Below, piece after piece: positions 1,832 through 23,490 of a DNA stretch of 64,000 nt. The stretch's first letter is position 1, and the number at the start of each line of letters is the position of its first letter. A program made the translations under genes and the position numbers. A model generated the notes under the pieces. The model ran no database searches and was not told where the DNA came from. It saw nothing but the letters and a program-made list of their open reading frames with translations. The stretch spans positions 1 through 64,000 of the forward strand of contig QHSP01000032.1 in NCBI GenBank assembly GCA_003220495.1, read 5' to 3'. The DNA is from Candidatus Rokuibacteriota bacterium (GTDB taxonomy: Bacteria; Methylomirabilota; Methylomirabilia; Rokubacteriales; CSP1-6).

Positions 1832-2866
1832 ATGAGGGTCGGCGTAGTCCTGGACGGGCGGCGGTCGGCCGCCGAGATCGCCGAGCTCGCGGGCCTGGCC
1901 GAGACACACGGGTTTTCCCACGTATGGCTCTCGGGCGGCGCCCGAACGAAGGACCATTTCGTGCGCCTGGCGCTGGCGGCCGCCGCGACGCGGCGGATCC
2001 GGCTCGGCCCGATCGCGGTGAGCCCGTTCGAGATGCATCCCGTGCACATCGGCCTGGCGCTCCTGACGCTCGACGAGATCGCGCCGGGCCGCGCGTGTCT
2101 GGTGCTCGGCGCCGGCGGCGACCTGGCGGCGACGCTCGAGCCGCCGGCGCGCGGCCGTGTGGACGCGGTCGAAGAATGCCTCGACATTCTTCGCGCCCAG
2201 GCCGCGGGTGGCGAGATCAACTACGCCGGTGCGCACTATCGCGTGACCGGACTCTTCTCGCCGTGGAGCCGCGTCGCGATGGATCGGCTCTATCTCGGCG
2301 CCAATCGCCCGCGGATGCTGCGGCTCGGCGCGCGCAAGGCCGACGGCGTGATGGTGACCGACATGCCGCTCGCCTACCTCGGCGGGCTCATCGCGCGGAT
2401 CCGCGCCGAGCTCGCCGCGGCCCGGCGAGAGCCGAGCGCGTTCGTGCTGAGCAACTGGTTCGTGTGGAACGTCCAGGAAACACGCGCGGAAGCCGAGCGC
2501 CTGGCCCGCCGCCAGCTCGCGTTTCGCCTCTATTACATCCGCGACGTCGCGTCCTCGATCGGCCTCGGCGAGGCGGAGGCCCGCGAGCTTGCGGAAAAGC
2601 AGCCCCAGATGCTGCGCGCGATCTTCAGTGGCGGGGAGCCGTGGGCGCCGGCGCCGCCCGTCGCCGAGCGCCTGATCGAGCATTTGACCTTGACCTCCGA
2701 TCGCCGGGGCCTCGAGGGGTGCGTCGGGCGCCTCCTGGAGTTCGAGCGGCTGGGACTCACGGAGATCGCGCTGGCTCCGCACGGCGACCCCGCCGCCGCG
2801 ATCGAGCTGATCGGCTCCGCCGTGATCCCCACGGTCGACCGCGAGCGAGCTTCCCGCGTTCCGTGA
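1832..2866 (+). CDS. LLM class flavin-dependent oxidoreductase
   Basis: A 344-residue luciferase-like monooxygenase/F420-dependent reductase-type TIM barrel. Family signs are the N-terminal strand MRVGVVLDGR, the early helix AELAGLAETHGFSHVWLS, the segment RRIRLGPIAVSPFEMHPV, and GRACLVLGAGG before helix 4. These proteins use FMN or F420 for oxidation or reduction of small organics; cofactor and substrate cannot be deduced here. The ATG is preceded at 7 nt by TATCTT (1819-1824) with no purine-rich ribosome site, which suggests a leaderless transcript. It is followed 68 nt later by a VOC gene on the same strand. Confidence 0.85.
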   Translation: MRVGVVLDGRRSAAEIAELAGLAETHGFSHVWLSGGARTKDHFVRLALAAAATRRIRLGPIAVSPFEMHPVHIGLALLTLDEIAPGRACLVLGAGGDLAATLEPPARGRVDAVEECLDILRAQAAGGEINYAGAHYRVTGLFSPWSRVAMDRLYLGANRPRMLRLGARKADGVMVTDMPLAYLGGLIARIRAELAAARREPSAFVLSNWFVWNVQETRAEAERLARRQLAFRLYYIRDVASSIGLGEAEARELAEKQPQMLRAIFSGGEPWAPAPPVAERLIEHLTLTSDRRGLEGCVGRLLEFERLGLTEIALAPHGDPAAAIELIGSAVIPTVDRERASRVP

Positions 2867-2934
2867 CTGGCGGCCCGCGCATGGCGTATCCTGTCGTCGC
2901 CCGTCCGGTGCCAGGGGGGCCCAACGGAGGACGC

Positions 2935-3306
2935 ATGATCAAGCTCGACCACCTGACGATCGCGGTGACCGACTGCGAGAAGTCGCGCAACTGGTACATC
3001 GAGACACTCGGGCTCAAGCTCGAGTTCGAGATTCCAGAGCGGCGCACCTCGGCCGTGCAGGACGAGTTCGGCTTCACGCTGTTCCTCGCCGAGACGCCCG
3101 GGGGCCCGGGGCGGCCAAGCTGCGTTCTGACGTTCCAGGTCAGCGACGTCGAGGCCAAGCATCGCCAGCTGGTGGCCGCCGGCGTGCAGTTCGTCCATCC
3201 GCCGCAGAAGACGTTCTGGGGCTACGGGGCCGATCTGAAGGATCCCGACGGCTATCACATCTGGTTGTGGGATGAGAAGACGATGCGGGAGAAGGGCGAG
3301 GTGTGA
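2935..3306 (+). CDS. VOC family protein (glyoxalase/dioxygenase fold)
   Basis: A 123-residue single-chain vicinal-oxygen-chelate protein with two beta-alpha-beta-beta-beta modules. Visible signs are KLDHLTIAVTD at the N-terminus (the first metal His), ETLGLKLEFE, and the C-terminal DPDGYHIWLWDE typical of the second module. Such proteins isomerise, cleave or sequester small metabolites with a divalent metal; the substrate is unknown. The start at 2935 is chosen because GGAGG sits 5 nt upstream; an in-frame ATG at 2881 would add 18 residues with no recognisable homology. Its TGA overlaps the GTG of the methyltransferase gene (GTGTGA). Confidence 0.85.
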   Translation: MIKLDHLTIAVTDCEKSRNWYIETLGLKLEFEIPERRTSAVQDEFGFTLFLAETPGGPGRPSCVLTFQVSDVEAKHRQLVAAGVQFVHPPQKTFWGYGADLKDPDGYHIWLWDEKTMREKGEV

Positions 3307-19734: not shown

Positions 19735-21315
19735 GTGGGCGAGACGCGGGTCGATCTCCTGCACCTTCTCGAGGACCTGCGCGACGCATATCCCGGCTCG
19801 ACCGAGGCGACGATCCTCACCGAGATCGTCGCCAACGCGCTCGACTCGGGCGCGACGACGATCGCCGTCTCGACTGACCCGGTCGCGCCGGCGCTCACCA
19901 TCGTGGACGACGGCGCCGGCATGCGCCGGCGCGAGCTGGCGCGCTATCACGACGTCGCCGCCAGCGCCAAGGCGCGCGGCGCCGGTATCGGCTTCGCGGG
20001 CGTCGGGATCAAGATCGCGCTTCTGATCTGCGCGGAGGTCATCACCGAGACACGTCGGGGAAAGCATCCCGTCGCGTCGTCGTGGCGGCTGGCGTCGCGC
20101 AACAGGGCCCCGTGGCGCTGGATCCCGCCGGAGGGGCGCGTGACGGAACGTGGGACCGCGGTGCGGCTCGTTCCGGAGAGCGCGCTGTCGCCGCTCGTCG
20201 ATCCCGGCTTCGTCGAGGGCGCGCTGCGCCGGGCGTTTCAGCCCCTCTTCGATCCGGCGCTCGCTCCGGTCCTGCGTCAATCGTATCCGCGCGGCGTCGT
20301 CTTCGTCCTGAACGGGCATGCGCTCGATCCTCACGGTGCGGAGGCGCCTGAGGTGGCGCCGCTCGCCATTCGCGTCGCGCGCAGGCGCCAGGCGGCCGGC
20401 GCGGGCTATCTCATGCGCTCCGCGGAACCGCTGCCCGAGGAGCTCCGCGGGGTCGCCGTCAGTACCTTCGGCAAGGTCATCCGGCGTGGCTGGGACTGGC
20501 TCGCGCTCGCGCCCGCGGCGGCCGACCGCGTCGCGGGCGTGATCGAGGTGCCGGCGCTCGCCGAGAGCCTGACCTTGAGCAAGGCGGATTTCATCCGCGC
20601 GGGCGCGCGCGGCGCGGTCTACCTCGCGTACCGGAAGGCGATCCAGGAGGCCGTCGCGCATCAGCTCACTCTCTGGGGCGACGCGGGTGAGCCGGCCGAG
20701 CGCGCCCGCCGTCGGGCCGCGCGCCCGGTCGAACGCGACCTCGAGGCCGTCCTCGCCGATCTGGCCGACGACTTCCCCCTCCTGGTGCCGCTGATCGAGC
20801 AGCGAGCCGGTGGCCAACGCCGGCTGCGGGCGGCCGGCCCCGGCTCCGGACCGCTCGGGCCGGGCGGCTCCTTACACGCACTGCCTGAAGCCGTACACGC
20901 ACTGCCTGAAGCCGTGGCCACCGACGCATCATCCGCGACGCCGGCGATCGAGGCGGCGATGGGCGCGGCGGCGCCGACGCCACCCGCGCAACCCGCGGCG
21001 GCGTCGGGCCACGTCGCCGAAGGTGCGCGTACGCGGAGGCCAGCCCGCTATGGGCTGAGCATCGGATTCGAGGCGCGCCCCGACGACTCAGAGCTCGGGC
21101 GCCTCGTCGAGTCGACCGTGTGGGTGAATGAAGCGCACCCCGCATACCGAAGGGCCGCCGCGTCGCGCTCGGAGGGCTACCACACGGCTCTCGCGGTCGC
21201 GCTGGCCCTGGCCCCGCTGGCCGTCGATCCGGCGAAGGAGCATGCTTTCATCACGGCGTTCCTGGCGAGCTGGGGCGCCGCCATCGAGCGGCGGAAGGGC
21301 CACACGCGGCGGTGA
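19735..21315 (+). CDS. GHKL (Hsp90/MORC-like) ATPase of unknown function
   Basis: A 526-residue protein with an N-terminal GHKL ATP-binding fold: N box EIVANALDSGA (N34), G1 DDGAGM (about 58-63), G2 GAGIGFAGVGIKIAL (82-96). No histidine-kinase, MutL or gyrase domain follows; residues 100-330 look like an S5-type domain plus helices, and 370-435 is an Ala/Pro-rich linker with two tandem VHALPEA units encoded by perfect 21-bp repeats. It has no signal peptide. GTG starts 14 nt after the cupin gene, and its stop overlaps the start of the triple-RidA gene (GTGA). Function is unknown; an ATP-driven clamp acting with the RidA protein is only a guess. Confidence 0.75.
   Translation: MGETRVDLLHLLEDLRDAYPGSTEATILTEIVANALDSGATTIAVSTDPVAPALTIVDDGAGMRRRELARYHDVAASAKARGAGIGFAGVGIKIALLICAEVITETRRGKHPVASSWRLASRNRAPWRWIPPEGRVTERGTAVRLVPESALSPLVDPGFVEGALRRAFQPLFDPALAPVLRQSYPRGVVFVLNGHALDPHGAEAPEVAPLAIRVARRRQAAGAGYLMRSAEPLPEELRGVAVSTFGKVIRRGWDWLALAPAAADRVAGVIEVPALAESLTLSKADFIRAGARGAVYLAYRKAIQEAVAHQLTLWGDAGEPAERARRRAARPVERDLEAVLADLADDFPLLVPLIEQRAGGQRRLRAAGPGSGPLGPGGSLHALPEAVHALPEAVATDASSATPAIEAAMGAAAPTPPAQPAAASGHVAEGARTRRPARYGLSIGFEARPDDSELGRLVESTVWVNEAHPAYRRAAASRSEGYHTALAVALALAPLAVDPAKEHAFITAFLASWGAAIERRKGHTRR
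20873..20914 (+). repeat. 21-bp tandem repeat, two perfect copies
   Basis: TACACGCACTGCCTGAAGCCG at 20873-20893 is repeated exactly at 20894-20914 inside the GHKL ATPase gene. It encodes two in-frame heptapeptides of the form VHALPEA in the interdomain linker, so copy-number change would keep the frame. Confidence 0.9.
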
Positions 21316-22664
21316 GCCCGGCCGGCGGCGGTGGCGATGCCGGCGGGAGCCGGCCGGCGATGGCGACGGAACGCGAAGGAATGGATACCCAAACGGGAAC
21401 GGGCTATTCTCCCCGCGTGCCGCGAATCGATATTCCCGTGCCCAGTATCCCGCAGCCGCTAGCGACCTACACGCCGGCGGCGCGCGCGGGCGACCTCGTG
21501 TTCGCGGCGGGCCACCTCGCGAGCGACTTCCAGCAGGGCGTCGCTCCCGAGGCGCGCCTGGACCCGGCGTTTCCCTACTACGGCTCGTCGATCAAGAGGC
21601 AGACGCGCTACGTGCTCGAAAATCTGAAGAAGACGTTCGAGGCGGCCGGCACAGCGCTGAGCCACGTCGTGAAGGCGCAGGTGTTTCTCACCGACCTCGT
21701 GCACTTCAACGGGTTCGACGAGGTCTGGCGGGAGTTCTTCCCGACGCCGCCGCCGCGGACGACGGTCGGCACGAGCGGGCTCCTGGTCCCCGGCTGTCTC
21801 GTCGAGGTCGACCTGACGGCCACGATGCCGAGGGCGGGGGGTCGCGTCGTGCAGTCGAGCGGCCCGCGGCCACTGGCGAATTACTCCGAGGCGGTGGTGG
21901 CGGGCGATCTCGTGTTCGCGGCGGGTCAGCTCGCCAGCGATTTCAAGACGGGCGTCCCGCGAGAAGCGCGCGTCGATCCGGCGTTTCCGTACTATGGGTC
22001 GGATATCAAGCGCCAGACCCGGTACGTTCTCGAGAATCTGGCGCGGACCTTCGAGGCGGCGGGGACGTCGCTGGATCGCGTCGTCAAGGCCCAGGTGTTC
22101 CACACGGACCTGAACAACTTCTTCGCGTTCGACGAGGTCTGGCGCGAGTTCTTTTCGACCCCGCCGCCGCGGACGACGGTCGGCACGACCGGGCTGCTGG
22201 TCAGAGACGCGCTGGTGGAAATCGATCTGATCGCGGCGCTGCCGTCGGCCCGAGTGCAGGCGGTCTCGGTGCCGGACATCCCCAGGCCGCTGGCGCACTA
22301 CACACCGGCGACGCGGGTCGGCGATCTCGTGTTCGCGGCCGGCCAGATCGCGAGCGATTACAGGACCGGCGTGCCGCGCGAAGCTCGCGTGGACCCGGCG
22401 TTTCCGTTCTACGGCTCGGATATCCAGCGTCAGACGCGGTATGTGCTGGAGAATCTGGCGAAGACGTTCAAGGCCGCTGGCACCTCGCTCGACCAGGTCG
22501 TCAAGGCGCAGGTGTTCCACACCGACCTCGCGAACTTCGCCGGCTTCAACGAGGCATGGCGAGAGTTCTTCCCCACCCCGCCGCCGCGCACCAGCGTGGG
22601 CACGACCGGGCTGCTGGTGCCCGGCACCCTGGTGGAGATCGACCTCATCGCGGCCACGCCCTGA
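21312..22664 (+). CDS. Triple RidA (YjgF/YER057c/UK114) fusion protein
   Basis: A 450-residue chain of three near-identical RidA domains (about residues 45-173, 183-311, 322-450) after a 44-residue unstructured N-terminus. Each repeats GDLVFAAG, ASDF/Y, RQTRYVLENL, VVKAQVF and PPPRTTVGT. The catalytic Arg equivalent to E. coli RidA R105 is present in all three (R149, R287, R426). RidA proteins are enamine/imine deaminases that work as homotrimers with active sites between subunits, so this chain could fold as one covalent trimer. The GTG at 21312 overlaps the ATPase stop; in-frame ATGs at 21360 and 21381 are alternatives. Confidence 0.88.
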   Translation: MSPAGGGGDAGGSRPAMATEREGMDTQTGTGYSPRVPRIDIPVPSIPQPLATYTPAARAGDLVFAAGHLASDFQQGVAPEARLDPAFPYYGSSIKRQTRYVLENLKKTFEAAGTALSHVVKAQVFLTDLVHFNGFDEVWREFFPTPPPRTTVGTSGLLVPGCLVEVDLTATMPRAGGRVVQSSGPRPLANYSEAVVAGDLVFAAGQLASDFKTGVPREARVDPAFPYYGSDIKRQTRYVLENLARTFEAAGTSLDRVVKAQVFHTDLNNFFAFDEVWREFFSTPPPRTTVGTTGLLVRDALVEIDLIAALPSARVQAVSVPDIPRPLAHYTPATRVGDLVFAAGQIASDYRTGVPREARVDPAFPFYGSDIQRQTRYVLENLAKTFKAAGTSLDQVVKAQVFHTDLANFAGFNEAWREFFPTPPPRTSVGTTGLLVPGTLVEIDLIAATP

Positions 22665-22689
22665 GCGGGCCGCGTGCGCGTCGAGCCGC

Positions 22690-23490
22690 TCAGCGGCCCT
22701 TGAACGACGGCGCGCGCTTCTCGACGAACGCCCGGATACCCTCGCGCGCATCCTCCGTCTCGGAGCAGACGTTCTGGGCGAACGTCTCGAACTCGAGCGC
22801 GCCGCGCAGATCGGTCTCCTCGCTGTGGTAGAGCGCGCGCTTGGCGAGCCGGATGGCGACCGGCGGACCCGAGGCGATCTTCCGCGCCAGCTCGTAAGCG
22901 GCCGGCATCAGCTCTTCGGGCGCGTAGACGGCGTTCACGATCCCGAGCCGCAGCGCCTCCTGTGCGTCGATGATCTCGCCGGTGAAGATGAGCTCGCACG
23001 CCTTGGCCATGCCGACCAGGCGCGGCAGGAAGTACGTCCCGCCCCAATCCGGATGGAGACCGCGCTTGACGAACGCCTGCGTGAACTTCGCGGCGGTCGA
23101 GGCCAGTCGAATGTCGCAGCCGAGCGCCAGGTTCATGCCGGCGCCGGCGGCGGCGCCGTTCACCGCGGCGATCACGGGTTTTGGCGCGTCGCGCATCGCC
23201 AGCAGCACGCGGTCGCGCAGCGGGGCAACCTTGTCCTCGAGTGGACGCGCCGGCGCGCGGCCCTCCTTGGAGTCGTTCATGGCCTTGACGTCGCCGCCGG
23301 CGCAGAAGCCCTTGCCGGCGCCCGTCACGACCAGCACACGAATCTCCGAGTCCTGGCTGGCCCGGAGGACTGCGTCGTAGAGATCGTCGCGCAAGGTGTC
23401 GCCCAGCGCGTTCAGGCGCTCCGGGCGGTTCAGGGTGAGCGTGGCGACGGCGTCCTTCACTTCGTAGATCAGGCACTTGTAGTCGGGCAT
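22690..23490 (-). CDS. Enoyl-CoA hydratase/isomerase family protein
   Basis: A 266-residue crotonase-fold enzyme. The oxyanion-hole segments are FCAGGDVKAM and AVNGAAAGAGM; the usual first catalytic Glu position is within ARPLEDKV..., while HPDWGGTYFLPRLVG carries Asp at the second catalytic position. Asp there is common in isomerases and in PaaG-like enzymes, so hydration versus isomerisation cannot be decided. The C-terminus FVEKRAPSFKGR is standard. AGGAGA lies before the ATG. The divergent nitroreductase starts 43 nt away. Confidence 0.9.
   Translation of the reverse strand: MPDYKCLIYEVKDAVATLTLNRPERLNALGDTLRDDLYDAVLRASQDSEIRVLVVTGAGKGFCAGGDVKAMNDSKEGRAPARPLEDKVAPLRDRVLLAMRDAPKPVIAAVNGAAAGAGMNLALGCDIRLASTAAKFTQAFVKRGLHPDWGGTYFLPRLVGMAKACELIFTGEIIDAQEALRLGIVNAVYAPEELMPAAYELARKIASGPPVAIRLAKRALYHSEETDLRGALEFETFAQNVCSETEDAREGIRAFVEKRAPSFKGR

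Follow-up and report, generated by a model that had tools for sequence, protein, structure and literature searches.

The window analyzed here is a 64,000-nucleotide stretch (positions 1 to 64,000) of contig QHSP01000032.1 from a Candidatus Rokuibacteriota bacterium, a label also carried by the closest relatives of this genome; the source assembly comprises 5.98 Mb on 159 contigs. In the region of interest, an ATPase-domain gene is followed by a gene encoding three fused Rid domains (3x-Rid), an enoyl-CoA hydratase, and a nitroreductase. The protein encoded directly upstream of 3x-Rid (positions 19735–21315) is 526 amino acids long and contains a GHKL-type ATPase domain (PF13589); a gene of this type is likewise found upstream of 3x-Rid in L036 and L037, and downstream of it in L041.

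The 3x-Rid gene, like all of its features described below, lies on the forward strand, at positions 21417–22664, and encodes 415 amino acids from a probable GTG start. At the DNA level it contains a direct repeat of 300 nt in three copies, spaced by 414 and 417 nt (138 and 139 codons), and Pfam PF01042 (Ribonuc_L-PSP) matches the protein three times, with a whole-protein E of 4.8e-78, far beyond chance. Together with a domain profile, these matches delimit Rid domain 1 (21435–21833), domain 2 (21849–22247), and domain 3 (22260–22661), all complete and of the YjgF/YER057c/UK114 type; their pairwise protein identities are 96/133, 97/132, and 102/132 (72–77%). The three closely similar RidA units at 138- and 139-codon intervals described in the first-pass annotation are thus confirmed, as is its observation that each unit keeps the equivalent of Escherichia coli Arg105 (codons 21756–21758, 22170–22172, and 22587–22589 in domains 1, 2, and 3, respectively). 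Each domain also keeps the equivalents of Tyr17 (21468–21470, 21882–21884, and 22299–22301), Glu120 (21804–21806, 22218–22220, and 22635–22637), and Gly31. All 42 domain copies examined, taken from 14 orthologues, have these four residues, whose columns are invariant in a shallow alignment of 13 sequences; three complete active sites are therefore expected. The combination of a PF01042 fold and an Arg105 equivalent places the domains in the Arg-bearing Rid group (RidA, Rid1–Rid3), in which the arginine of characterized RidA is essential for imine hydrolysis (PMC4433059). The RidA subfamily model TIGR00004 scores 215.1 bits against a cut-off of 106.25, a lenient comparison, as the score sums three domains.

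The gene was originally annotated as a 450-residue protein, and an open frame of that length does exist (21312–22664, forward strand), but its start is probably GTG 21417 rather than 21312. Starting at 21312, where the GTG overlaps the stop codon of the ATPase-domain gene, would add 35 codons that are not conserved; in most orthologues conservation begins 35 codons downstream of 21312, at the position of GTG 21417 (VPRID...). Orthologues L036 and L043 have an ATG at the matching position, L039 and L040 are 415-aa frames with a GTG there, and several orthologues show a purine-rich, Shine-Dalgarno-like stretch immediately 5' of it. Because no clear Shine-Dalgarno sequence was seen at the window copy's own GTG 21417, the assignment leans on this comparison. 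In the 35-codon extension, moreover, G+C does not follow the codon-position pattern seen in the remainder of the frame (0.67/0.49/0.89), the only frame with the expected pattern; an antisense ORF (21459–22751) and one further forward-strand frame overlap the gene and look like by-products of its high G+C content.

Same-architecture orthologues were identified in 11 of 95 Methylomirabilota genomes (including that of the window), all within one family-level group; 10 copies are nearly full-length and one is cut by a contig end. Beyond the phylum, co-linear three-domain proteins 60–66% identical to that of the window are present in at least five genomes (the Alphaproteobacteria Defluviicoccus and Beijerinckia sp. 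L45, one Betaproteobacterium, and two Acidimicrobiia), a lower bound because these were sampled by exact peptide patterns. A plasmid search returned no clear fused relatives, its joined matches resembling ordinary single Rid genes. One orthologue (L043:5968-7164; G007:C91) carries an in-frame deletion of approximately 27 codons in the loop and helix 1 region of domain 3, and is known from one assembly only.

With this distribution in hand, two alternatives to a genuine single-chain ring can be weighed, the more drastic being that the gene is an assembly artefact or a chance joining of single-domain genes, a concern that the first-pass annotation had itself raised. Fragmentation of the assembly into 159 contigs would be compatible with such an error, but the architecture recurs in 10 further Methylomirabilota genomes (one copy being the contig-end-cut one) and in the five genomes elsewhere, and synteny around 3x-Rid is conserved in several of them; we consider an artefact to be refuted by these co-linear orthologues and its probability negligible. 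The other alternative accepts the fusion and supposes that the rings are built from domains of different chains, as a domain-swapped or beads-on-a-string oligomer in which the chain acts as a linker or scaffold. Structure prediction, proposed at the outset as a check on the covalent-trimer idea, bears directly on this point. AlphaFold2 yielded confident whole-chain folds both for the window protein aligned with 12 orthologues (mean pLDDT 81, pTM 0.86) and for the Beijerinckia orthologue, 65% identical to it (mean pLDDT 79, pTM 0.84). For three domains of approximately 130 residues, such pTM values indicate that their mutual arrangement is confidently predicted, although the prediction may have been guided by known RidA trimers. 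In both models the inter-domain linkers have lower pLDDT (approximately 55–80), which would fit a swapped oligomer, and higher assemblies are plausible in view of 2-aminomuconate deaminase (AmnE), a hexamer of two trimers with an insertion at the equivalent place. Against swapping stand the high whole-chain pTM in two diverged orthologues and the resemblance of the model to single-chain chorismatases over its whole length, so that we regard this arrangement as improbable, if less remote than an artefact.

The chorismatase resemblance emerged from Foldseek and holds for both models: among the 50 PDB matches listed, the only ones spanning the whole chain are the chorismatases 4bps, 5ag3, and 5a3k (FkbO/Hyg5), at approximately 380 columns and TMq 0.48–0.52, versus 0.24–0.28 for single RidA chains. 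Chorismatases are single-chain proteins with a RidA-trimer-like build, which together with the fold match makes them a likely precedent for a pseudo-trimer. As single chains they match the predicted model over its whole length (TM about 0.5–0.64); unlike the window protein they act on chorismate, a different chemistry, and they are only 12–16% identical to it. Searches by sequence against Pfam, NCBIfam, and PDB found no chorismatase match, and the resemblance is one of fold only.

The whole-chain models and the chorismatase matches, together with three intact sites, support the proposal in the first-pass annotation that 3x-Rid could be a covalent trimer. We consider it likely that three Arg-bearing RidA-type domains, arranged head to tail, fold together into a single-chain pseudo-trimer whose presumed threefold ring geometry would place one catalytic cleft at each domain–domain interface (1/2, 2/3, and 3/1). 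In TdcF the catalytic clefts lie between adjacent subunits (PMC1884159), so a closed three-domain ring would hold three complete sites. The protein would probably hydrolyze imine or enamine intermediates, like RidA and RutC, the most likely substrates being reactive intermediates from the breakdown of an imported nitrogen compound.

The fused-trimer idea itself is already in the literature: Niehaus et al. 2015 named "3x-RidA" proteins, with three RidA domains fused in tandem, as "presumably covalently linked trimer units", citing EF_0115 of Enterococcus faecalis V583 (PMC4433059). The window gene adds a well-conserved example, and in its family every domain carries a loop insertion of 11 residues; with EF_0115 as published it shares the tandem fusion of three RidA domains. 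We found no later work on 3x-RidA in the open-access papers searched. RidA and TdcF share with the window domains their fold and the equivalents of Tyr17, Gly31, Arg105, and Glu120, but are homotrimers of chains of about 128 amino acids without the loop insertion. Among single-domain proteins, RutC (aminoacrylate deaminase; PDB 3v4d) gives the best fold match to the window model, and the NCBIfam RutC model matches the protein three times; RutC differs from it in being a single domain without the insertion. Membership in RutC was rejected, as the TIGR03610 equivalog cut-off is missed even with three domains (157.8 versus 169.1 bits), and the rut pyrimidine operon is absent among the neighbours of the window gene and of the orthologues examined.

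The inserted loop contains the motif DPAFPYYG in domains 1 (21561–21584) and 2 (21975–21998) and DPAFPFYG in domain 3 (22392–22415), as placed by alignment. The departure from classical RidA noted here in the first-pass annotation is real, each domain being 11 residues longer around this motif in alignment to 2dyy, but the insertion has a precedent in AmnE, whose loop Lp2, connecting strand 3 to helix 1, contains 11 extra residues (Ala49–Pro59; PMC6742747). Domain 1 aligns to AmnE (PDB 6izh) with almost no net gap (126 versus 125 residues), its loop corresponding in position to Lp2. Unlike the window protein, AmnE is a single-domain hexamer, with about 26% identity in its fold-search alignment to the model, and no 2-aminophenol catabolic operon genes, the context of AmnE, were found among the neighbours examined. 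In AmnE the insertion loop is required to join the two trimers (PMC6742747); by analogy, the loop of 3x-Rid could serve in pairing two pseudo-trimers.

The gene neighbourhood varies by lineage. No importer was found among the window gene's own neighbours, and its enoyl-CoA hydratase and nitroreductase neighbours recur within the genus. In L039, 3x-Rid lies within a complete operon for a branched-chain-amino-acid-type ABC importer, in the order solute-binding protein, 3x-Rid, two permeases, and two ATPases; in L040 it is followed by the same permeases and ATPases, and in L045 by a different ABC importer. Importer genes flank or lie close to 3x-Rid in L046, L047, and L048, and Mo-hydroxylase genes lie 5' of it in L046 and L047. 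The neighbours in L044 are housekeeping genes (RNase E and amidase). As importer permeases are abundant, with 78 matches in the window's genome, single adjacencies weigh little; their recurrence across lineages suggests a catabolic imine/enamine deaminase.

These contexts raise the alternative that 3x-Rid is not a general RidA-type detoxifier but a dedicated catabolic deaminase for one specific substrate linked to an imported nitrogen compound, comparable to RutC or AmnE. Importers and Mo-hydroxylases near orthologues of several lineages fit such a role, as do the insertion where AmnE carries one and the large set of Rid-domain matches in the window's genome (22), which would cover housekeeping needs. 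The missed RutC cut-off and the variation of contexts, including the housekeeping neighbours of L044, point the other way, and no substrate-specific RutC or transporter model scored above its cut-off. We consider this proposal nearly as probable as its negation; it sharpens the pseudo-trimer model and does not exclude it. A separate question is how the domains came to be so alike, which the first-pass annotation had attributed to recent triplication or ongoing gene conversion. The 72–77% protein identity among copies would agree with that, as would a tree of 42 domains from the window's 3x-Rid family (27 of them Rokubacterial), in which domains cluster by lineage across phyla; a single clade for all domains of a given position is rejected (p-AU 5.5e-7, 5.6e-5, and 3.7e-4 for domains 1, 2, and 3, respectively). 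However, the 27 domains from Rokubacteria fall together in a single group (97/94) inside which domains 1, 2, and 3 cluster by position, and orthologous domains across genomes are 82–84% identical in nucleotides, versus 75–78% for paralogous domains within a chain. This indicates that the triplication is older than the divergence of these Rokubacterial genomes. Third positions of the paralogues agree at about 62%, and no clear conversion tract was seen in 25-codon windows. Recent triplication or conversion was thus rejected at the Rokubacterial genus and family level, and we find it highly improbable for the window's lineage; a homogenizing or repeated-fusion signal appears only between phyla, where the pattern may reflect either a single fusion followed by old homogenization or several independent fusion events involving one domain type.

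A broader interpretation would draw these strands together: 3x-Rid would constitute a distinct multi-phylum family of catabolic imine deaminases belonging to ABC-importer operons, its domains kept alike by concerted evolution or repeated fusion, with the catalytic arginine lost from one, two, or all domains of related Rokubacterial 3x-Rid families. We advance this combination tentatively, and with less conviction than a dedicated catabolic role. As the core idea has been known since 2015, the result is less a surprise than a useful addition. Having a RidA ring in a single chain would nonetheless make it possible to mutate the active sites one at a time, an option that a homotrimer does not offer, and one could then ask if each works independently of the others. 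Rokubacterial 3x-Rid proteins with three, two, one, or no catalytic arginines offer a natural series for studying fused symmetric enzymes, and the importer-operon context is a testable lead toward the physiological substrate.

The search for other three-domain RidA proteins suggested in the first-pass annotation led, in addition to the orthologues, to two further Rokubacterial 3x-Rid families. One, about 40% identical to that of the window, comprises L054:6367-7677, L055:6265-7542, and L056:6907-8184. The Arg105 equivalent is present in two domains of L054 and only in domain 2 of L055 and L056; these proteins may show successive stages of active-site decay within a fused ring. In L054, the gene next after 3x-Rid encodes a solute-binding protein.

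The other family, about 27% identical, includes L058, L060, L061, and a second three-domain Rid protein of the window's own genome, L049:2961-4190 (G000:C158:7960-9189). Residue-by-residue reading found the Arg105 equivalent absent from every domain of all four; in L049 the position is occupied by Ala or Ser in all three domains. Matches to L049 also occur in nine further genomes belonging to its family-level group; two of these matches are fragmentary. The window's genome additionally contains a two-domain Rid frame followed by an overlapping single-domain frame (L050:2020-2892 and 2729-3295; G000:C150:19172-20294), which may be either a ring-completing 2+1 arrangement or a frameshifted triple.
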